A stretch of 58,339 nucleotides of DNA from Chloroflexota bacterium (GTDB taxonomy: Bacteria > Chloroflexota > UBA6077 > JACCZL01). Position numbers and translations under genes: made by a program. The DNA lies in assembly GCA_020850535.1 (NCBI GenBank), contig JADZEM010000102.1, positions 1 through 58,339 on the forward strand, read 5' to 3'. Shown here one piece after another: positions 3,698-54,134 of the stretch (positions within the stretch are counted from its first letter, which is position 1; each line of letters opens with the position of its first letter). Under the pieces are notes generated by a model, which was given only the letters and a program-made list of their open reading frames with translations, had not been told where the DNA came from and did not search any database.

Positions 3698-4452
3698 CCG
3701 ACCGCAACCCGCGGCCGGCCGTCGCCTGCCCGACGCTGATCGGCGTCGGCGTCGGGCCGGGCGATCCGGAGCTGCTGACGTTGAAGGCCGTCCGGGCCAT
3801 TCGCGAGGCGGACGTCGTCTTCGCACCCGTCCGCCACGCCGGCGACCGCAGCATGGCGCTCCAGATCGTCGCGGACCACCTGGACCCGGCCCGGCAGGAG
3901 ATCGTCACGGTGCCGTTTCCGCGCACGGACCGTGGCGAATCGTGGAGAACGGCCAGCGCGTCAATGCTCTCCAGGCTCGGCGGTCGTCGTGGCGTGTTCC
4001 TGACGGAAGGCGATCCGCTCCTGTTCGGCAGCTTCGGCGACGTGCTGGCAGCGCTCGGCCCGGCCTCGGCGTCCGTCGGCGTGGCAGCGATCCCCGGCAT
4101 CTCGTCGGTCACCGCTGCTGCCGCGGCCTCATTGCTCCCCCTGACCGACCACGATCAGCGGCTGGCCATCGTGCCGGCCACGGCAGGTGTGTCCGAGATC
4201 GAGGCCGCCATTCGCCAGTACGATTGCGTCGTGCTGCTCAAGGTTGGCAGACTCCTCGGCAGCCTCCTCGATCTGCTCGCCGCACATGGTCGGCTGGACT
4301 CCACCGTCTACATCCGACGCTGCGGCTGGCCCGACCAGGAGATCGTTCACGACGTGCGACGCTTGCGGGCGTCGCCACCCCGAGACTACTTCGCGCTGCT
4401 GATCGTTCACCGGCCGCGCCACGCTGAGGAGTACGATGGGAACGTTTCGTGA
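3694..4452 (+). CDS. cobI: Precorrin-2 C20-methyltransferase (CobI/CbiL)
   Basis: Adds the SAM methyl group at C20 of precorrin-2 or cobalt-factor II. The 252-residue protein has the tetrapyrrole methylase motifs GVGVGPGDPELLTLKAV, FLTEGDPLLFGSF and IPGISSVTAAAA, followed by LPLTDHDQRLAIVPAT, which is characteristic of CobI/CbiL. It starts at ATG 3694 inside the cobL stop codon and overlaps cobM by 17 bp. Given an early cobalt chelatase (cbiX at 53247-54134), it may act on the cobalt-containing substrate; sequence alone cannot decide. Confidence 0.92.
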   Translation: MTDRNPRPAVACPTLIGVGVGPGDPELLTLKAVRAIREADVVFAPVRHAGDRSMALQIVADHLDPARQEIVTVPFPRTDRGESWRTASASMLSRLGGRRGVFLTEGDPLLFGSFGDVLAALGPASASVGVAAIPGISSVTAAAAASLLPLTDHDQRLAIVPATAGVSEIEAAIRQYDCVVLLKVGRLLGSLLDLLAAHGRLDSTVYIRRCGWPDQEIVHDVRRLRASPPRDYFALLIVHRPRHAEEYDGNVS

Positions 4453-5290
4453 GGCGCGCGGCGGCATGGTGGTGTTCGTGGGGGCCGGCCCCGGCGACCC
4501 CGACCTGCTCACGATCCGTGCGCGTGACGTCATCGCCGCCGCCGATCTGGTGATCTGGGCCGATTCGCTGGTGCATCCGGGGGTGGCCGCCCTGGCCCGC
4601 CCCGATGCCGAGGTGATCGGCAGCGCCACCATGACGCTGGAGACGATCTCCGAGCGGATGATCGCGGCGGCCCGGGCTGGCAAGCTCGTGGCTCGCGTCC
4701 AGAGCGGCGACCCGGCCATCTACGGCGCGATGCACGAGCAGATGGTGTTGCTCGATGCCGCCGAGATTCCGTACGCCGTGGTGCCGGGCGTCAGCGCCGT
4801 CTTCGCCGGAGCCGCCGCGCTGAACGCTGAGCTGACCGTCCCGGACGTGGCCCAGACGGTCATCCTGACCCGACTCCCCTCGCGCACGACGATCCCCGAG
4901 CAGGAGCGGCTGCGGGCGATGGCTGCCCACGGCGGCACGATCTGCCTGTTCCTGAGCATCACCGTCATCGAGCGGGTGGTGACCGAATTGATGGAGGGCG
5001 GCTACCTGGCCGACACGCCGGCCGCCGTGCTGCACCGCGTGACCTGGGAAGACGAGACGATCATCCGAGGGACGCTGGCCGACATCGCGGCCTCGGCGCG
5101 AGACGCCGGCCTGAAGCGGCAGGCCCTGATCCTGGTCGGGCGGGCCATCGATCCCCAGTTGACTCGGGTGGCCTCGTCGCACCGCTCGAACCTGTACAGT
5201 CCCGAATGGAGCCACGTCTTCCGACTGGCTGAGGGGCGTGGGCAGACGGACACGTCTGCCACGGGGGTTGCCGAGCGTGAACGGTCGTAG
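4436..5290 (+). CDS. cobM: Precorrin-4 C11-methyltransferase (CobM/CbiF)
   Basis: Methylates C11 of (cobalt-)precorrin-4. The 284-residue protein shows VVFVGAGPGDPDLLTIRA, IWADSLVHP, the SAM-site region VQSGDPAIYGAMHEQ, VPGVSAVFAGAAALN and ILTRLPSRTTIPE, all in family order. The C-terminal 25 residues are not part of the fold and overlap the next gene. The ATG at 4436 lies inside the end of cobI, so coupling is likely. Cobalt state is unknown, as for the other methylases here. Confidence 0.93.
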   Translation: MGTFREARGGMVVFVGAGPGDPDLLTIRARDVIAAADLVIWADSLVHPGVAALARPDAEVIGSATMTLETISERMIAAARAGKLVARVQSGDPAIYGAMHEQMVLLDAAEIPYAVVPGVSAVFAGAAALNAELTVPDVAQTVILTRLPSRTTIPEQERLRAMAAHGGTICLFLSITVIERVVTELMEGGYLADTPAAVLHRVTWEDETIIRGTLADIAASARDAGLKRQALILVGRAIDPQLTRVASSHRSNLYSPEWSHVFRLAEGRGQTDTSATGVAERERS

Positions 5291-7160
5291 GCGGCGCTCG
5301 GGCGTCGCGGTTGTCGCGGTCACCCGCCAGGGCACGCGGCTGGGCGCGCAGATCGTGGCGACGCTGCGCTCAAGCCTCGACGAAGACAGCGACGTGGAGA
5401 TTGCGCTCCACATCAAGAGCCAGTGGGCGGGTGATGCGCCTGAGGATGCCGTGCCCTTCGACGGCTCGCTCGGGCCGCTGCTGGCGGACCTGTTCCCACA
5501 GGTCGAGACGCTGATCTCGGTGCTGGCCGTTGGCGCGACCGTTCGGCTGGTCGCACCGCTGCTCGGCAAGAAGCGCGACGACCCCGGCGTCATCTGCGTG
5601 GACGACGCAGGGCAGTTCGTGATCCCGGTCCTCGGCGGCCACCAGACCGACGCCAACGGGCTGGCCCAGGAGATCGCGGACGCCATCGGCGCGACGGCGG
5701 TGGTGACCACGGCCAGCGACGCCATCGGCCTGCCCAATCTGGACCGGCTCGGGTCGGTCCAGCAGTGGCGGATGGACGCCCTGCCCGAGACCGTCAAGCA
5801 GGTGAGCGCCGCCGCCCTGGCCGGCCAGCTTCCGACCGTCTACTTCCCGCGCGAGTTCCAGGGGCCGCACGCCGAGCTGCCGGAGGCGTGGCCGCGCGCC
5901 GACTCCCTGGCCGCCCTGCGCGGCGTGAGCGGGCCGCGCATCGCCATCACCGACCGCGTCCTGCCCGACGATCTTGTCTCGGATGGCGGGCCGCTGCTGG
6001 TCTACCGGCCGCGCACCCTGGTACTGGGGATCGGGTGCAGCACGGATGCCACGCCAGACGATGTCGAGTCGCTCGCACGTCGAACGCTCAGCGCGGCGGG
6101 ATTGGCCTGGGGCAGCGTGCACACGGTCGCGACCATCGACCGACGGCTCGATCACCCGGCCCTCGTGCGGCTGGTCTGGCAGGCTGACGCAGCCTACTTT
6201 CCCGTCTTCACCCCCGAACAGCTTGCCGCCGTGCCAGATGTGCCGACGCCCTCGGCGGAGGTCGAACGGCACGTCGGCACGCCCGGCGTTGCCGAGCCGG
6301 CCGCGATCCTTGCCAGCCAGGGCGGCGTGCTGCTGGTGCCGAAGCAGAAGTCGGCCACGGCGACGGTCGCCGTCGCGCGGCGCGGCAGCATCGCGCTGGA
6401 GCCAGGAGCGCTCTGGCTGGTCGGGATCGGGCCGGGGCCGCTCGACCTGATCGCACCCCGTGCGAGCCGCGCCATCCGCTCGGCCGACATCGTGATCGGC
6501 TATCGTGGCTACCTTGAGCTGCTTTCGGAGATCGTGAGCGAATCCCGCATGCGTCCCTACGACCTGGGCCAGGAGCACGAGCGGGCCGCCGCGGCGATCC
6601 GGCTGGCGCAGCAGGGGCGGCAGGTGGCCGTGGTGTCGAGTGGCGACATCGGCGTCTACGGCATGGCCGGTCTGGTCTTCGAGCTGCTGCACGAGCAGCC
6701 GCCATCTCCTGCCGGCGAGGATATCAGCGTCGAGGTGATCCCAGGCATCACGGCGGCCTCGTCCGCCAATGCGTTGCTCGGCGCGCCGTTGATGCTCGAC
6801 TTCGCGGCGATCAGCCTCAGCGACCTGCTGGTGCCGTGGGACGGCATCCGCCGGAGGCTTGAAGCCGCTGCACAGGGCGACCTCGTCGTCGTCCTCTACA
6901 ACCCGGCCAGCGCACGGCGTCGCCAGCCGTTCGAGGATGCCGTGGCCATCCTCCGCGAGCACCGCGCACCCGAGACGCCGGTCGGCCTGGTCCGCGATGC
7001 CTACCGTGACGAGGAGAACGTCACTGTCACGACATTGGCCGAGCTGACGGTGGACGACGTGGACATGCGGACCGTCGTGGTCGTCGGCTGCTCGCGCACG
7101 GAACTGCTGGACGGTGTGATGGTCACGCGGCGGGGCTACCTGGAGCGGCCGGGCCGATGA
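5277..7160 (+). CDS. cbiG-cobJ: CbiG-CobJ fusion: cobalt-precorrin-5A hydrolase and precorrin-3B C17-methyltransferase
   Basis: A two-function corrin enzyme of 627 residues. About residues 5-110 form the CbiG N-terminal domain (LISVLAVGATVRLVAPLL, IPVLGGHQTDANGLA). A linker domain follows. Residues about 244-375 form the CbiG C-terminal/CobE domain (LVLGIGCSTDATPDDVE, ending in LVPKQKSATATVAVARR). From about 378 to the end is CobJ/CbiH (LVGIGPGPLDLIAPRA, VSSGDIGVYGMAGLV, VIPGITAASSANALLGAP, YNPASARRRQPFEDA). CbiG opens the delta-lactone and releases acetaldehyde in the anaerobic route; CobJ methylates C17 with ring contraction. I chose GTG 5277, 14 bp inside cobM after a G-rich ribosome site; GTG 5238 is a longer option with less conserved sequence. 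Confidence 0.93.
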   Translation: MNGRRRRSGVAVVAVTRQGTRLGAQIVATLRSSLDEDSDVEIALHIKSQWAGDAPEDAVPFDGSLGPLLADLFPQVETLISVLAVGATVRLVAPLLGKKRDDPGVICVDDAGQFVIPVLGGHQTDANGLAQEIADAIGATAVVTTASDAIGLPNLDRLGSVQQWRMDALPETVKQVSAAALAGQLPTVYFPREFQGPHAELPEAWPRADSLAALRGVSGPRIAITDRVLPDDLVSDGGPLLVYRPRTLVLGIGCSTDATPDDVESLARRTLSAAGLAWGSVHTVATIDRRLDHPALVRLVWQADAAYFPVFTPEQLAAVPDVPTPSAEVERHVGTPGVAEPAAILASQGGVLLVPKQKSATATVAVARRGSIALEPGALWLVGIGPGPLDLIAPRASRAIRSADIVIGYRGYLELLSEIVSESRMRPYDLGQEHERAAAAIRLAQQGRQVAVVSSGDIGVYGMAGLVFELLHEQPPSPAGEDISVEVIPGITAASSANALLGAPLMLDFAAISLSDLLVPWDGIRRRLEAAAQGDLVVVLYNPASARRRQPFEDAVAILREHRAPETPVGLVRDAYRDEENVTVTTLAELTVDDVDMRTVVVVGCSRTELLDGVMVTRRGYLERPGR

Positions 7161-19415: not shown

Positions 19416-19449
19416 AACAGCCCTCGGCCAGGTTTGGCCGAGGGCTGTT
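19416..19449 (+). terminator. 15-bp hairpin after the SWIM gene
   Basis: Positions 19416-19430 pair perfectly with 19435-19449 around GGTT (stem begins AACAGCCCTCGG). It lies 45 bp after the SWIM stop and just before cbiB. There is no T-run, so termination strength is uncertain, but the stem is very stable. Confidence 0.65.
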
Positions 19450-19468
19450 GCGTGCGCAGGACGCGGCC

Positions 19469-20419
19469 ATGAGCAACGCGCGTGCGCTGCCGATGATCGC
19501 CGCCCTCGCGCTCGACGCCGTCCTGGGCGAGCCGCCGGATGCACTGCACCCCGTGGTGTGGATCGGCACGGCTGCAGGCCACCTGGAGCGGCGTGCTCCG
19601 CGACATGGGACGCCAGCGCTGCTGGCCGGGGCGGCCATCGTCGGGCTGACCGTCGGCGGGTCCGCGCTGACTGGGCTCCTGGCGCAGCGCATGCTCCAGC
19701 GGCTGCCCTGGCCGCTTCGCCTGCTGGTCGAGGCCTGGCTGCTCAAGACGACGCTCAGCGTGCGGGCGCTGCTCGATGCCGGGCATGCCGTCGAGGAGGC
19801 GCTCGCCGACGACGACCTGGACGTGGCCCGTCAGGACGTGCGCGCGCTGGTCAGCCGCGACCCAACAGGCCTCACGGCGACGCAGTTGACGAGCGCTGCC
19901 ATCGAGTCGCTCGCCGAGAACACCGCCGACAGTATCGTCGCACCACTCGTTTACTACCGCCTGGGTGGCCTACCCGCCGCCTTCGCCTATCGTGCCGCCA
20001 ACACCCTTGACGCCATGATCGGCTACCGGGGCGAGTACGAGCATCTCGGCAAAGCCGCCGCCCGCCTCGACGACCTCCTGAATCTCGTCCCCGCGCGTCT
20101 CAGCTCCGTCACATTGCTGGTTTCCGGGGCGATCTTCGGTGGCGCGGTCCCGACCGGCGTCGCGATCACGGTGCGCGACCATCGGGAGACCGCCAGCCCC
20201 AACGCCGGCTGGCCGATGAGCACGATGGCCGGCCTGCTGTTCGCACGGTTGGAGAAGCCCGGCCACTACGTACTCGGGGACGACCTCCCAGCGCCGGACA
20301 TCTCGGCTATCGACCACGCGGCCCAGATTGTCGCCGGGGCGGCCGGGCTGACGGTCCCGTTGGCAGCGATCGTGGGCCGGCTGGTTGACAGCATCCGCCG
20401 CCTCGTTCGGTGCTGGTAG
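19469..20419 (+). CDS. cbiB: Adenosylcobinamide-phosphate synthase (CbiB/CobD)
   Basis: An integral membrane enzyme that attaches the aminopropanol arm to adenosylcobyric acid. The 316-residue protein shows LDAVLGEPPDALHPVVWIG at the N terminus, SRDPTGLTATQLTSAAIESL, ENTADSIVAPLVYYRLGG, AYRAANTLDAMIGYRGEYE and NAGWPMSTMAG, which together are specific to the family. Several hydrophobic spans are visible. ATG 19469 is used; the upstream GTG at 19448 lies in the terminator hairpin. The next gene, 12 bp downstream, also belongs to cobalamin lower-ligand assembly. Confidence 0.93.
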   Translation: MSNARALPMIAALALDAVLGEPPDALHPVVWIGTAAGHLERRAPRHGTPALLAGAAIVGLTVGGSALTGLLAQRMLQRLPWPLRLLVEAWLLKTTLSVRALLDAGHAVEEALADDDLDVARQDVRALVSRDPTGLTATQLTSAAIESLAENTADSIVAPLVYYRLGGLPAAFAYRAANTLDAMIGYRGEYEHLGKAAARLDDLLNLVPARLSSVTLLVSGAIFGGAVPTGVAITVRDHRETASPNAGWPMSTMAGLLFARLEKPGHYVLGDDLPAPDISAIDHAAQIVAGAAGLTVPLAAIVGRLVDSIRRLVRCW

Positions 20420-32720: not shown

Positions 32721-32803
32721 GCGCGACAGACGGTACAGTCACGCAGTTGCACGCTCGGCCACCCTCTGCGTGGCCGCACACCCAGAGTAGAGGGTTGCAC
32801 ACC

Positions 32804-33700
32804 ATGCGCCTCGTGACGTTCAGAGCCGAAGACGGGGCCGCTCGTCTCGGTGCAGTGGTCGGCGAACAGGTCGTCGATCTGGCGACTGCCTCCGGCGGTG
32901 CGCTGCCGTCGAGCATGCTCGCGTTCATCCAGAGCGGCCGGGCCGCCCTCGAAACGGCCCGCTCGGTCCTGGCCGCCAGCCCGAGCGGCGTTCCGCTCAC
33001 ATCGGTCATGCTGCTCGCGCCGATCCCGCGTTCGAGCCGAAACCTGCTCTGCCTCGGCCTCAACTACCGCGCACACGCGGCCGAGGGCGCGGCCCTCTTC
33101 GGCGCGCCGGTCGCGGAGCCGGCCTTCCCGATGTTCTTCACCAAGGCCCCGACGAGCGTCATCGGCCCTGGCGAGACCATCGAGATCGACACGTCGCTGA
33201 CCAGCGAGCCGGACTGGGAAGTTGAGCTGGCGGTGGTGATCGGCCCCGGCGGTCGAGACATCGCGAAGGCGGATGCCTGGAGGCACGTCTTCGGCTACAC
33301 CGTCGCCAACGACATCTCGGCGCGCGACCTGCAGTTCCGGCATGGCGGCCAGTTCTTCAAGGGCAAGAGCCTCGACACGTTCTGCCCGCTCGGGCCGTGG
33401 ATCGTGACGGCCGACGAGTTCGGCGACAACCCGACCCTCAACATCTCGCTCAGGCTGAACGGCGTCGTCAAGCAGGCCTCGAACACCAGCAAGCTGATCT
33501 TCGACATCCCGACGACCATCGCCTCGCTCTCCGAAGGCATGACGCTGGAGTCCGGCGACGTCATCCTGACCGGCACGCCGGAGGGTGTCGGCTTCGCCCG
33601 GAAGCCGCCCGAGTACCTGAAGAACGGCGACGTGGTCGAATGTGAGATCGAGGGTATCGGCATCCTGCGGAATCCGGTCCGCGAGAGGAGGCGCGCATGA
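32804..33700 (+). CDS. Fumarylacetoacetate hydrolase family protein
   Basis: A cytosolic metal-dependent hydrolase or isomerase of the FAH fold, 298 residues. A small N-terminal domain (MRLVTFRAED) precedes LLCLGLNYRAHAAE, EPDWEVELAVVIG with the metal-binding acids, FGYTVANDISARDLQ, GKSLDTFCPLGPWIV and TGTPEGVGFARKPP. Family members cleave C-C bonds in fumarylpyruvate or act in homoprotocatechuate breakdown. No aromatic pathway genes are close, so the substrate is unknown. ATG 32804 is preferred over the upstream in-frame start at 32747. It overlaps the next gene by ATGA. Confidence 0.9.
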   Translation: MRLVTFRAEDGAARLGAVVGEQVVDLATASGGALPSSMLAFIQSGRAALETARSVLAASPSGVPLTSVMLLAPIPRSSRNLLCLGLNYRAHAAEGAALFGAPVAEPAFPMFFTKAPTSVIGPGETIEIDTSLTSEPDWEVELAVVIGPGGRDIAKADAWRHVFGYTVANDISARDLQFRHGGQFFKGKSLDTFCPLGPWIVTADEFGDNPTLNISLRLNGVVKQASNTSKLIFDIPTTIASLSEGMTLESGDVILTGTPEGVGFARKPPEYLKNGDVVECEIEGIGILRNPVRERRRA

Positions 33701-36529: not shown

Positions 36530-37000
36530 TCAGTAGACCCAGCTGCCCACCAGGTACAGCGGCAGGCGCACGGCCCACAGCGCCAGCATCAGCCCGATCA
36601 GCACCCACGGGGCCGGCGTCTTCGAGAGCCACTCCAGCAGCCAGGATGGCTTCGTCGCGGCCAGTCCGCCGGGGTGCGCCCGCCACCACGCATAGGCGTC
36701 AACGGCAACCAGCAGCAGCGCCGCCAGCACCAGGAAGACCGCCAGCGGATGATAGTACAGCGAGCCGGTCAGGTCGCCGTGCATCAGCAAGACCACGGCG
36801 CGGGTCAGGCCGCAGCCGGGACACGGCAGTCCGCTCATCAGCTTGAAGATGCACAGTTGCGGACCGTGCAGCACCCAGTCGGGTGGCAACAGTGCGCCAG
36901 CCGTCAGCCCGGCCATGCCGATCAGGGCTGGCCGAAACGCCTGCTCGGCGAGCGGGCGCAGAGCGTCTCCCAGCGGCACGCGCGGCACGGCCTCCGCCAC
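36530..37000 (-). CDS. DUF2752 membrane protein
   Basis: A 156-residue protein with about three spans and the DUF2752 signature CPGCGLTRAVVLLMHGD after a first span, followed by LYYHPLAVFLVLAALLL. The Cys pair and Gly-Leu-Thr-Arg motif define the family; its role is unknown. GTG 37000 is preceded by a GGGAGGGAG ribosome site. It lies 17 bp after the upstream gene ending at 37018, so they form a pair. Confidence 0.85.
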   Translation of the reverse strand: MAEAVPRVPLGDALRPLAEQAFRPALIGMAGLTAGALLPPDWVLHGPQLCIFKLMSGLPCPGCGLTRAVVLLMHGDLTGSLYYHPLAVFLVLAALLLVAVDAYAWWRAHPGGLAATKPSWLLEWLSKTPAPWVLIGLMLALWAVRLPLYLVGSWVY

Positions 37001-37017
37001 CGATACTCCCTCCCGCT

Positions 37018-37572
37018 CTACCGAGGCGGACTGAGTCGATCCAGGGTCAGCGCCGTCGTTACGCCGTAGAGGATGTGCAGGCCGATGGCCACCACCCGCA
37101 GACCCATCGCGGCGCGCGCCGGTCGCTCGTACAGACGCAGGGCGGGCACGATCCGGCCAGGACCGATCAGCCAGACGACGATCCCGGTGATGATGCCGTA
37201 AGGGACGGCGGGCGGGCGCAGCCGCAACTGGATCTGGGCGGAGAGTGCGCCCCAGCCGGCCCCGTAGAGCCAGTAGATCCACAGGCCGATCCGCTGCCGG
37301 CTCTCCTGCGACAGCTCGCGGTTGAACACTCGGCTGGCCAGCCGCTCGGCCACCTGCTCCTGCGGCGGCAACTGCCGGCCCGTGTCGATGGCCCGCAGGT
37401 CGTCAAGCTCGGCCTCATCCAACGAGTCGTCGTCGCGCTGCGCTGGCGACCCGCCCAGCAACCGGCTGGCGGCCTGGAGCCCTGTGGTCATCACCAGCGT
37501 GCCGACGAGGCCGGCGGCTACCCCCTTGAGCGTCTGCTGAAACGGGCTCTCGGTCACGGGCCTACGCGGCAT
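37018..37572 (-). CDS. Membrane protein of unknown function
   Basis: A 184-residue protein starting at ATG 37572 after GGGAG. The N-terminal segment GVAAGLVGTLVMTTGLQAAS is hydrophobic and Gly-rich, as in DUF1440/YagU-like proteins. A polar Asp/Glu-rich loop follows, then three more spans (YWLYGAGWGALSAQ, GIITGIVVWLIGPG, VVAIGLHILYGVTTAL). I do not recognise the family with confidence. It precedes the DUF2752 gene on the same strand. Confidence 0.7.
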   Translation of the reverse strand: MPRRPVTESPFQQTLKGVAAGLVGTLVMTTGLQAASRLLGGSPAQRDDDSLDEAELDDLRAIDTGRQLPPQEQVAERLASRVFNRELSQESRQRIGLWIYWLYGAGWGALSAQIQLRLRPPAVPYGIITGIVVWLIGPGRIVPALRLYERPARAAMGLRVVAIGLHILYGVTTALTLDRLSPPR

Positions 37573-37692
37573 CTGGTGCTCCCTCACGGCTGTGGCAGAG
37601 ATCGGATCGCTGGCTGCGCCCGCACCGCCGTTCGCGGGCGACCCTACTTGCCACGAATCTTACCGGCCGGCGCACACCGGCCGTCAGTCACG

Positions 37693-38436
37693 CTACCGCC
37701 ACGTATCGACTTCCCGTCCGCCCGGCCGCACGATCTCGCTGACGGCGAGGAACGGACCGGTCGGCCAGCGCTTGAACGCCTCGTCGCGCCGGAGGGCGTC
37801 CGCGATATCGGTCACCTTGTTGTTGCGGACGAACATCGCGTGCTGACTGACGTGGGCGTTGGCCGCCGCCAGCTTTCGGTCGAACCAGGGCGAGATGTCC
37901 AGCGTGATGTCGGCCCGATCATCCTCGTTGACGATCCGGTCCACGCCGCCCTTGCCGTCGTTTGCGCACCAGGTGAGCAGCTCCGAGGGCGTCCACGGCG
38001 CGAGCGTCCCCAGAGCTGCCAGCACGGCCCGGTGAGTGTAGATGTGCTGCGGATGGCCGTATTCGCCGTTCGAGCCGTGGGTGAGGACGACGTCCGGCCT
38101 GAGCTTGCCGATCCGCTCGGCCAGCGCCGCGCAGAACTCGACTGGCCCGGCGTCGATGGCGAGCGCCTCGCCGCCGATCTCCATCCACGGATCGACGAAG
38201 TCCAGGAACCAGACGTCGCGCGCCCCGAGCGCCGCCGCCGAGCCGCGCATCTCGACTTCCCGATACTCCCCGAGGCGCGATTTCGGCCCGACGGGCGGCT
38301 CGCCGACCTCACCGCCCTCGCCCCGCGTCGTGCAGAGCAGATAGAGGTCGTGCCCCTCGCTCACCAGCTTCGCCAGGTATCCTGCCCCGAACAGCTCATC
38401 GTCGGGATGCGCCGAGATCGCCAGTACCGTCGCCAC
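37693..38436 (-). CDS. PIG-L/LmbE family deacetylase
   Basis: A zinc-dependent N-acetylglucosamine-type deacetylase of 247 residues. The N-terminal motif AISAHPDDELFGAG supplies His, Asp and Asp for zinc and catalysis, and HPQHIYTHRAV supplies the second metal His. TRGEGGEVGE and the DVVLTHG strand also fit. Relatives deacetylate GlcNAc-inositol (mycothiol, GPI), bacillithiol precursors or other small glycans. Substrate not evident. It ends near 37693 and the MtrA-like gene starts the same strand group 57 bp upstream. Confidence 0.9.
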   Translation of the reverse strand: MATVLAISAHPDDELFGAGYLAKLVSEGHDLYLLCTTRGEGGEVGEPPVGPKSRLGEYREVEMRGSAAALGARDVWFLDFVDPWMEIGGEALAIDAGPVEFCAALAERIGKLRPDVVLTHGSNGEYGHPQHIYTHRAVLAALGTLAPWTPSELLTWCANDGKGGVDRIVNEDDRADITLDISPWFDRKLAAANAHVSQHAMFVRNNKVTDIADALRRDEAFKRWPTGPFLAVSEIVRPGGREVDTWR

Positions 38437-38493
38437 AGATGGCCCTCCGAACGTGCGGCCCTCCGCACGCCTCTCTCAGTGTGCTGCTATCGC

Positions 38494-39369
38494 TCAGCCG
38501 TGCGCGTCCATCGGCGGATGGTTCATCAAAGGGCGGTCCTGCTCGTAGTCGACGTTCAGGCGCAGCGCCGACTCGGCCCGCCCAAGCTCGCGCCCCAGGT
38601 AGACGGCGTGGGCGAGCAGCGTCACCAGACCGCGCCGGGCGAGCGTCTGCCCGATCTCTGCGGCGCCGGCTCCTTCGACGACATGCTGAAGCTCATGGCG
38701 CTGGTTGTAGTGCTCGACGCGCAGCAGTCCGTTGGGGCGGTCCACGAAGACCAGGAAGTACCCAATCGGATCGTACTCCCAGGCCGACCGCTGGTCGAGC
38801 GTCGCCTTGATACGCTCGGCACGGTCCGCGCTCCGCACAGCCTCGCCGTCCTCGGCTCTGGCAGCAGCCGTGCCGACCGACGCGGCCAGCTCGCCCGACC
38901 GCGCGATGATCGTGGCCGGATCCAGCTCGCCGATCATATCGACGACCTGGACTCGGCGCTGAAAGGTGCGAAGCTGATCGGGGCGGAGATTCGGCATGAA
39001 CGGCTCGGGGGCTGTCGAGCCGATGACCCGGTGGTCGGCGTCGAGTCCATTGGCGTGGAGCGCCAGGATCGTCTGTCCGACAGCATGCGGCGTCTCGCGC
39101 CCACAGACGACGAGCACGCGCAGCGTCGTCATGCCGGCCACGTTCTGCACCATCCGCTCGATGCCGACGTTCTCCGTGAAGACGCGCCCGGCGATGGCGA
39201 TCTCCGGGCGGGCCACCAGATCGGCCAGGAGCGACCGGCTGCCGAGCGTGCAGACGGCGACCGGGCTCTCCAGGTTCCCGAACACCACATCTCCTACCAG
39301 CGGAGGCGCGGCGTTGGCCGCCGAGGTTGCCGCGGTCTCGCCCGGCTGGCCCGATCTGCTCTCTGACAT
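38494..39369 (-). CDS. MtrA-like corrinoid-binding protein with DUF4346 domain
   Basis: A soluble 291-residue protein. Residues ~22-155 match the cytoplasmic domain of MtrA, the corrinoid subunit of tetrahydromethanopterin S-methyltransferase: VGDVVFGNLESPVAVCTLGS, FTENVGIERMVQNV, VVCGRETPHAVGQTILALH and a late FQRRVQVVDMIG. His95 in PHAVGQ aligns with the cobalt-ligand His of MtrA (GHISGQ type). From about 195 the DUF4346 region follows (YDPIGYFLVFVDRPNG, VEHYNQRH, AVYLGRELGRAESAL). There is no membrane anchor as in archaeal MtrA and no other mtr gene. The window's cobalamin genes would supply the cofactor. Methyl donor and acceptor are unknown. ATG 39369 has an AAGGGA site. Confidence 0.82.
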   Translation of the reverse strand: MSESRSGQPGETAATSAANAAPPLVGDVVFGNLESPVAVCTLGSRSLLADLVARPEIAIAGRVFTENVGIERMVQNVAGMTTLRVLVVCGRETPHAVGQTILALHANGLDADHRVIGSTAPEPFMPNLRPDQLRTFQRRVQVVDMIGELDPATIIARSGELAASVGTAAARAEDGEAVRSADRAERIKATLDQRSAWEYDPIGYFLVFVDRPNGLLRVEHYNQRHELQHVVEGAGAAEIGQTLARRGLVTLLAHAVYLGRELGRAESALRLNVDYEQDRPLMNHPPMDAHG

Positions 39370-39557: not shown

Positions 39558-40379
39558 ATGTCTGGCGGAGACGTTGCGGGTATCTCCAGCCCTACCAACG
39601 GAGACCATGCGGCCCGATTCGATCGTGTGGCCGACCCGCGCAGCCTGTTCGGCGCCGGGCTGTCCGCTCCGCCGACCGTCGAGCGCCCCGCGCCGGCCCC
39701 CAGGACCGCCGAGCGCTTTGGGCTGCCGTCGAGCGTCATTCACGAGCTGCGCACGCCGCTGACGTCGATCCACGGCTACGCGCAGGTGCTGAAGCGCACG
39801 CTCCGAAACGAGCCGAAGGCGTCGAACGCTGTAGCTGTCCTCAACCGGGAGAGCGCGCGGTTGTCGGACATGCTGGGCCTGCTCTCCGAACTGTCAGACC
39901 TGGAGGACGACGAGCCGGCGCCCGAGCACGAACGCATCCAGCTTGCCGACCTCGTTGACGGCGTCGTACATGACATCACGCGGCGCGAGGGCGAGGACCG
40001 TGGGTTTATCGTTTTCGGCGATGCCCAGGTGCTGGCGAGTCGGACGCTGGTGGCGCAGGCGCTGGCGCACGTCCTGGTGAACGCCGTGCGCTACTCCGGG
40101 CCCGGGCAGAACGTCACGGTCGAGGTGCGGTCTGCTGGCGGTGCAGGCGAGATCCTCGTGCACGACGATGGCATCGGCATCCCGCCAGCGGACCAGGCGC
40201 GGGTCTTTGCGCCGTTCGAGCGGGGATCCAACGCGCGCGACCATGGGGTGCGTGGGCTGGGACTCGGGTTGTATCTCGCCCGTCGCGCGCTGGAGCAGAC
40301 CGGCGGCGACATCGAGATCGTGCCCGTGCCCGGCCGCGCGAGCGGCACCACCGTCCGGATCACCGTGCCAGCAGCCTGA
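39558..40379 (+). CDS. Soluble histidine kinase without a recognisable sensor
   Basis: A 273-residue HisKA/HATPase kinase. The H box is SSVIHELRTPLTSIHGYAQ with His62. The ATP-binding domain has LVNAVRYSG (N box), HDDGIGIPP (G1), FAPFERGS (F) and GLGLGLYLARRAL (G2). The first ~55 residues are Pro/Ala-rich with no PAS, GAF, HAMP or membrane span, so no signal input is visible. No response regulator gene is next to it. It may act as an orphan kinase or join another protein. Confidence 0.9.
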   Translation: MSGGDVAGISSPTNGDHAARFDRVADPRSLFGAGLSAPPTVERPAPAPRTAERFGLPSSVIHELRTPLTSIHGYAQVLKRTLRNEPKASNAVAVLNRESARLSDMLGLLSELSDLEDDEPAPEHERIQLADLVDGVVHDITRREGEDRGFIVFGDAQVLASRTLVAQALAHVLVNAVRYSGPGQNVTVEVRSAGGAGEILVHDDGIGIPPADQARVFAPFERGSNARDHGVRGLGLGLYLARRALEQTGGDIEIVPVPGRASGTTVRITVPAA

Positions 40380-53246: not shown

Positions 53247-54134
53247 TCAGGCCCGCGTCTCCACCTGGAGCAGTTGCCGACGACCGTTCGCCACCGAGTT
53301 GCAGGACGCTCGACCGCACACCGAGAGCAGCCCCTCGCGCGGCAGACCCAGCGCCAACCCCTCGCGCACACGCCGCTCGATCAAGTCGAGCATCCGAGGA
53401 TGCAGTCCGAAATGGGCGCTCCGAGCAGCCTGCAACCCAGGATGCGCCTCCCGGATCGCCGCAAGCTGCTCGTCAATGCGCCTGAGCAGCACTCCCGTGT
53501 TCAGGAAGTAGGGGACAATCGCCAGGCGGGTGGCCCCGAGCTTGACGCAGCGCTCCACGACCTCGGCGAGGCTCGGGCGGGTCAGGCTGACCCAGGCCGC
53601 TTCGACCATCGGATACTGGTCCTTGCCGCGTTCCCAGACCAGCCGCGCCGCCTTACAGAGGTCGCCGTTGGCATCTGGATCGCTGGTGCCAGCGCCCACC
53701 AGGATCACGGCGGTCAGCGAGTCGTCCGCGCCGTCAAGGGTGGCGAGCGCTTCCTGCGCGCGGGTGTCCACGGTCTCCAGGATCTCGTCGGCAGCGCCGA
53801 GCGGCGGCACGAACTCGATCTCGGCCCACTGGCCGGCTGCGCGCGCGGCTTGCAGCTCGGTCGGCAAATCCTCGCGCACGTGTCCGGCTGGGAACAGGAA
53901 GTAGGGCAGCGCCACGACCTGTCGCGTGCCGAGACGCGCGCACTGCTCCCACGCTTCGTCAATCGACGGCAAGCCGTCCTCGGCGCGCGGGAACTCGAGC
54001 GCACCGAACACGACCTGGATCGGCGCGAGACGCTCGGCAATCGCTTCGTGGATGCGTCGATACTCGGCGCGGGCCTCGCGGTCCCGACTGCCATGGGCCA
54101 TCATCAGAACCGATTGATCGCTCGTATTGCTCAT
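53247..54134 (-). CDS. cbiX: Sirohydrochlorin cobaltochelatase (CbiX, long form)
   Basis: Inserts cobalt into sirohydrochlorin, the entry to the early-cobalt (anaerobic) cobalamin route. The 295-residue protein has two homologous halves. The first begins VLMMAHGSRDREARAEY with the metal-binding His and has LPYFLFPAGHVREDLP. The second has VGAGTSDPDANGDLCKAARLVWE and VPYFLNTGVLLRRI. A CGRASC pair near the C terminus may bind metal. It lies 46 kb from the corrin cluster and is a single gene, so its link to that cluster is by function only. Confidence 0.9.
   Translation of the reverse strand: MSNTSDQSVLMMAHGSRDREARAEYRRIHEAIAERLAPIQVVFGALEFPRAEDGLPSIDEAWEQCARLGTRQVVALPYFLFPAGHVREDLPTELQAARAAGQWAEIEFVPPLGAADEILETVDTRAQEALATLDGADDSLTAVILVGAGTSDPDANGDLCKAARLVWERGKDQYPMVEAAWVSLTRPSLAEVVERCVKLGATRLAIVPYFLNTGVLLRRIDEQLAAIREAHPGLQAARSAHFGLHPRMLDLIERRVREGLALGLPREGLLSVCGRASCNSVANGRRQLLQVETRA

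Follow-up and report, generated by a model that had tools for sequence, protein, structure and literature searches.

The window analysed here, a contig of 58,339 nucleotides from a Chloroflexota bacterium (JADZEM010000102.1), encodes on its reverse strand a soluble protein of 291 amino acids (38494-39369, ATG start) that joins an MtrA-type B12-binding domain to a C-terminal DUF4346 domain. Judged from its sequence, the likely function of this protein is that of a cytosolic corrinoid methyl carrier. Taken as a whole, we think the best explanation of the data, with a probability of about 0.55, is a cytosolic methyl carrier with the MtrA fold, belonging to a family that points to chemistry on soft metals and metalloids. 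The domains, the fold match, the ligand residues and the statistics of gene context are shown directly; for the divergent copy in the window, we infer corrinoid binding, methyl carriage, the substrate and any link to metals.

A soluble MtrA domain with the cobalt ligand in place

The gene has the features of a genuine coding sequence, with AAGGGA about 8 nt 5' of the ATG and a coding-type pattern of GC content at the three codon positions. A longer frame of 827 amino acids on the other strand (36883-39366, +) was rejected as spurious, being antisense to both mtrA and the adjoining PIG-L gene, each of which has conserved relatives. The MtrA domain (PF04208; residues 17-165, 38875-39321, -) is matched with an E-value of 2.6e-32 and 112 bits against a cut-off of 25, and DUF4346 (PF14251; residues 200-278, 38536-38772, -) with 1.5e-18 and 68 bits against 29.6, both far above chance. 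The NCBIfam model NF002128 spans the two domains (residues 17-279) at 206.5 bits, below its cut-off of 568, so that the equivalog threshold is not reached; this MtrA-DUF4346 model of 390 aa extends about 107 positions further at its N-terminal end, in the region where relatives bear a Cys-rich domain. The protein is the sole match to either MtrA or DUF4346 in the 7.65-Mb genome. A membrane anchor is lacking, the Kyte-Doolittle mean over 19 residues never exceeding 1.32, and MtrH (PF02007) has no match anywhere in that genome. The homology to the soluble domain of MtrA, the fusion to DUF4346 and the missing anchor had all been proposed in the initial annotation, and all are borne out; its further remark that the other mtr subunits are absent holds as far as MtrH is concerned. 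Neither the window nor any of four related loci yielded a riboswitch when scanned with Rfam.

The structure prediction that had been suggested as a check of the likeness to MtrA also comes out in its favour. The PDB entry 5laa, MtrA with cobalamin, is matched by the sequence at 3e-25 (phmmer), and an AF2 model built from ten relatives (pLDDT 78) finds 5laa at a TM-score of 0.83 and 5l8x at 0.78 (by target length; 35-38% identity), all seven Foldseek matches at E<=0.001 being MtrA. We take the designed "Pizza" proteins that also turned up in the PDB search to be chance matches to one 40-residue stretch, and no stretch passes alone.

In MtrA the lower axial ligand of cobalt is His84, with Glu54 as its hydrogen-bond partner, and further contacts are made by Thr53, Asn55, Gly57, Asn64 and Tyr18, the latter stacking on the benzimidazole (Wagner et al. 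2016, PMC4915002). When the window protein is aligned on the sequence of M. fervidus MtrA, His84 corresponds to His95 (39085-39087, -; motif H-x-x-G-Q), as had been claimed, and Glu54 to Glu66 (39172-39174, -; motif T-E-N). Six key contacts are present, namely Thr65, Glu66, Asn67, Gly69, His95 and the equivalent of Asn64. Two features count against a corrinoid carrier: the position of Tyr18 is occupied by Val, and compared with archaeal MtrA, one residue is missing from the loop leading into His95 (in the large branch of relatives that retain the ligand, hereafter the His+ branch, this loop is two residues longer).

The behaviour of the ligand pair across the family is informative here. Of 105 sequences, 77 have the equivalents of both Glu54 and His84 and 23 have neither, with Glu alone in four and His alone in one; the two are thus kept or lost together, as would follow from a shared role at the cobalt site, and this pattern fits a working site where both residues occur. 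The conservation of His95 in orthologues, on which the initial annotation had staked its proposal, is mixed and on balance favourable. The three genomes of the window's family all retain both residues, and the ligand His occurs in 68 of 80 relatives retained from at least 455 found by sequence search; on the other side, whole clades have lost the His, with the partner Glu lost alongside.

The protein can be compared with several known systems. It resembles methanogen MtrA (5laa, 5l8x, 8q3v) in its Rossmann-type B12 domain, the T-E-N and H-x-x-G-Q motifs and the Glu54/His84 pair, and differs from it by the shorter loop, the Val in place of Tyr18 and the added DUF4346. It also lacks the C-terminal transmembrane helix and the MtrH partner that characterise subunit A of the Mtr complex, an energy-converting Na+ pump. 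Bacterial homologues, mostly with His84, have already been reported (PMC4915002), and the window protein is like the cytoplasmic homologues of methanogens and bacteria described there, which are soluble, anchor-free and mostly retain the ligand; the cytoplasmic methanogen copies are, however, 60-97% identical to MtrA, against 33-38% here. What that paper says of these homologues includes neither DUF4346 nor operon context, and relative to it the spread of the MtrA-DUF4346 family and its genomic context are new.

DUF4346 itself gives a confident beta-beta-beta-alpha-alpha model when predicted alone (34 sequences, pLDDT 89). This model has no PDB match at E<=0.001, so that the label "PterinBD" attached to the domain is structurally unsupported here, and sequence profiles gave no credible match to a pterin-binding structure either. 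The domain is also C-terminal in the dihydropteroate-synthase-like family TIGR00284, and the name may derive from there.

As to mechanism, the cobamide would probably be held base-off/His-on through His95, with Glu66 tuning this ligand, and a methyl group would probably be shuttled between a donor and an acceptor protein, DUF4346 most likely acting as a docking or capping module.

Neighbours of the gene and rival readings

The only tight partner of mtrA in the three-genome clade is a PIG-L family deacetylase that keeps its AHPDD motif; in the window it lies 57 bp downstream on the same strand (37693-38436, -), and it adjoins mtrA in all three genomes with gaps of 57, 9 and 9 bp. A histidine kinase with HisKA and HATPase_c and no recognised sensor domain (39558-40379, +) is divergent from mtrA, as first noted, and is a looser neighbour, since in the two other genomes it is found upstream beyond a gene for a dynamin-like GTPase that overlaps the start of mtrA. 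We do not retain this GTPase as a partner: it is absent from the window genome, and its homologues elsewhere in the order lie on contigs that do not carry mtrA. Somewhat further away, the gene at 32747-33700 (+) recurs near mtrA: seven genomes, among them members of families f1 and f2 and the more distant G019, have a homologue no more than about 10 kb from it.

The investment in cobalamin synthesis that had been claimed for this genome is evident in the window itself, which holds CbiJ, CbiG, three TP_methylase proteins, CbiB and CbiX; the genes concerned encode a CbiJ/CobK precorrin-6x reductase (767-1567, -), a TP_methylase and a CbiG-TP_methylase fusion (4436-7160, +), CbiB/CobD (19448-20419, +) and the cobalt chelatase CbiX (53247-54134, -). 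The genome also has a MetH-type protein, a DHPS-type protein and other B12-binding proteins, together with four frames matching PF01717. No dedicated partner methyltransferase was recognised in it, its two pterin-binding proteins resembling DHPS and MetH, and ThyA was not found.

Several other explanations deserve to be weighed. The protein could be a degenerate relative that has lost cobalamin binding, as several sister clades seem to have done. The short loop and the Val at position 18 would fit, and so would the loss of His84 both in f2, a family of the same order (where it is replaced by R, P or W), and in a clade in which T-A-N is found; we nevertheless regard this as unlikely, because none of the six key contacts has been lost in the three-genome clade, in contrast to its neighbours, and the loop varies in length in the large His+ branch as well. 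The initial annotation had left the choice between a B12-dependent methyl carrier and a corrinoid sensor; the former stays the best reading and the latter a rival, in which the protein would signal its cobamide, methyl or redox state to the histidine kinase. The sensor remains a candidate because a kinase devoid of a sensor of its own is found near mtrA in each of the three family genomes, and the lack of a recognised partner methyltransferase is in line with it. However, the kinase is on the opposite strand, its counterparts in the different genomes resemble one another little (53-126 bits), and its synteny across three related genomes may be passive, the neighbouring RsfS being conserved too, so that of the readings considered here we give this one the least credit.

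Hardly more probable, in our opinion, is that MtrA-DUF4346 proteins are C1-transfer accessories of nucleotide metabolism, the pair of domains serving thymidylate or pterin C1 chemistry. This idea comes from another branch of the family, in which MtrA, ThyA and DUF4346 are fused (L024:1489-2988, +; L029:457-1920, -), the ThyA part best matching the methanogen-type model TIGR03283. In the window's own order the ThyA of such proteins is decaying, with PPRL in place of PPCL (the presumed catalytic Cys) in L020, an eroded domain in L022 and none left in L019. Moreover, an archaeal contig (L057:1518-3723, +) carries MtrA-DUF4346, ThyA (TIGR03283) and dCTP deaminase genes consecutively, and its protein is, by path length in the tree, the nearest to the window clade among sequences from outside the family. 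Against this, the fusions form a clade of their own with 100% support, in which both His84 and Glu54 are lost, the evidence from L057 is one contig of 4 kb, and ThyA is missing from the window genome. For the same reason, the separate position of the fusion branch and its lack of the ligand pair, we rejected the idea that the window protein arose from an MtrA-ThyA-DUF4346 fusion whose ThyA part was lost. Our preferred reading for the window protein stays that of a cytosolic corrinoid methyl carrier.

Distribution of the family and its metal(loid) context

MtrA matches occur in 28 of 301 sampled Chloroflexota genomes, in 12 of 29 genomes of the window's class and in 11 of 16 of its order. A scan of genome contigs gave the relatives mentioned above, and the 80 kept come from more than 20 phyla; no relative was found in viral contigs. 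The window protein forms a clade with those of two other genomes (G209/L053 and G089/L054), which are 54-56% identical (SH-aLRT 100). This three-member clade falls outside the 60-member His+ branch (SH-aLRT 97), and the deep order of the remaining clades is not settled in what is a quick SH-aLRT tree without bootstrap. Two observations on neighbouring parts of the tree may be recorded here. In the sister family f2, in which the ligand His is lost, one locus (L045:8145-15102, -) reads PadR, ABC, ABC, mtrA and a chromate transporter pair. The T-A-N clade (L061-L064, L066, L069, L071, L072) places soil "Bathyarchaeota" bins among Ktedonobacterales and other Chloroflexota sequences, a mixture that, on the tree, may reflect either recent transfer or mis-binned contigs.

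The survey of gene neighbours in other bacteria, which had been recommended at the outset, proved rewarding, since it uncovered metal-resistance operons in relatives as well as the thymidylate synthase of the fusion branch. A Cys-rich N-terminal domain (CxxCxC and C[LIV]GC) is present in 51 of the 68 His+ relatives and in none of the 12 that are His-. The gene directly upstream of mtrA encodes an ArsR-type regulator in 18 of 80 cases; for the other genes of the same loci the figure is 13 of 818 (Fisher p 1.6e-12, a value that overstates independence, the loci being related), and no His- mtrA gene has such a regulator there. Genes that turn up repeatedly alongside mtrA encode a small secreted-type protein, a membrane protein with a GCC motif, a thioredoxin together with a membrane protein of the DsbD type, P1B-ATPases and CusA-type pumps, some of these labels resting on similarity to seeds named by eye. 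Copies of the GCC-motif protein adjoin mtrA in about a dozen loci, and in another (L101:9176-10726, +) a membrane domain with this motif, unmatched in Pfam, forms the N-terminal part of a fusion with MtrA-DUF4346.

Individual loci make the association more concrete. In G019, which belongs to the window's class, ArsR, P1B-ATPase and mtrA genes follow one another with head-to-tail overlaps. The Planococcus plasmid pA26H3 (L151:352-6169, +) carries ArsR, a cation transporter, a heavy-metal P1B-ATPase, mtrA and an ISL3 transposase, and its MtrA-DUF4346 protein is apparently identical to one of Paenibacillus naphthalenovorans (L067), which suggests horizontal transfer. MerR and MerA genes stand beside mtrA in Dechloromonas hortensis. 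Three Chloroflexota relatives with the ligand His (L038:3935-4768, -; L040:6518-7465, +; L041:9133-9969, -), of which the first has a C-terminal FeS domain of the CFeSP type (PF04060, Pfam), are found in loci containing ArsR, an ArsP permease, an ACR3/SBF transporter and an ArsM-like methyltransferase, a context that suggests corrinoid-dependent arsenic methyl chemistry.

In the largest His+ branch, the Cys-rich domain could possibly serve for reductive activation or metal capture, and its combination with ArsR and P1B-ATPase or other efflux genes suggests that a soft metal or metalloid gives or receives methyl groups in the course of detoxification. Corrinoid proteins that work with an Fe-S partner are familiar from the corrinoid iron-sulphur protein and from HgcA/HgcB, in which the corrinoid protein is unrelated to MtrA. 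The MtrA relatives with PF04060 FeS or Cys-rich domains in ars and metal operons recall these systems by analogy only, and the window protein differs from both in having no Fe-S or Cys-rich domain, with two Cys in all.

The associations with ArsR, P1B-ATPase, mer and ars genes thus lead to a metal(loid) hypothesis at the level of the family only. For the window copy the link to metals is a weak inference, as this protein is without the Cys-rich domain and its gene without a metal operon, the immediate neighbours being the PIG-L and histidine kinase genes and not an ArsR-type regulator or metal efflux gene. We would tentatively go further and suggest, as a speculation that seems to us more probable than any of the rivals above and still improbable in absolute terms, that MtrA-DUF4346 proteins form a new class of B12-dependent enzymes for which soft metal(loid)s such as As, Hg or Pb give or receive methyl groups, that they are combined with ArsR regulators, P1B-ATPases and Fe-S or Cys-rich domains and travel on mobile elements, and that the window protein is a divergent member with the same chemistry and another acceptor. 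Two points count against the metal reading, namely that adjacency to ArsR is confined to 18 of the 80 loci and that the metal differs between operons.

Significance for corrinoid biology

The open-access literature searched contains no report tying MtrA to arsenic, mercury, ArsR, selenoprotein operons or thymidylate synthase, and the metal(loid) link at the family level is likewise unreported there. In methanogenesis MtrA is the established B12 motor. If many bacterial proteins share its cobalt site and do without the Mtr complex, with one branch tied to metal(loid) resistance and another fused to thymidylate synthase, the uses of this corrinoid fold would extend far past methane, and the NCBIfam name "tetrahydromethanopterin S-methyltransferase subunit A" would be misleading for its bacterial members. 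If the metal link is true, bacteria, including the plasmid-bearing Planococcus, would possess a new route for making or breaking carbon-metal bonds, which would bear on the cycling of arsenic and mercury.
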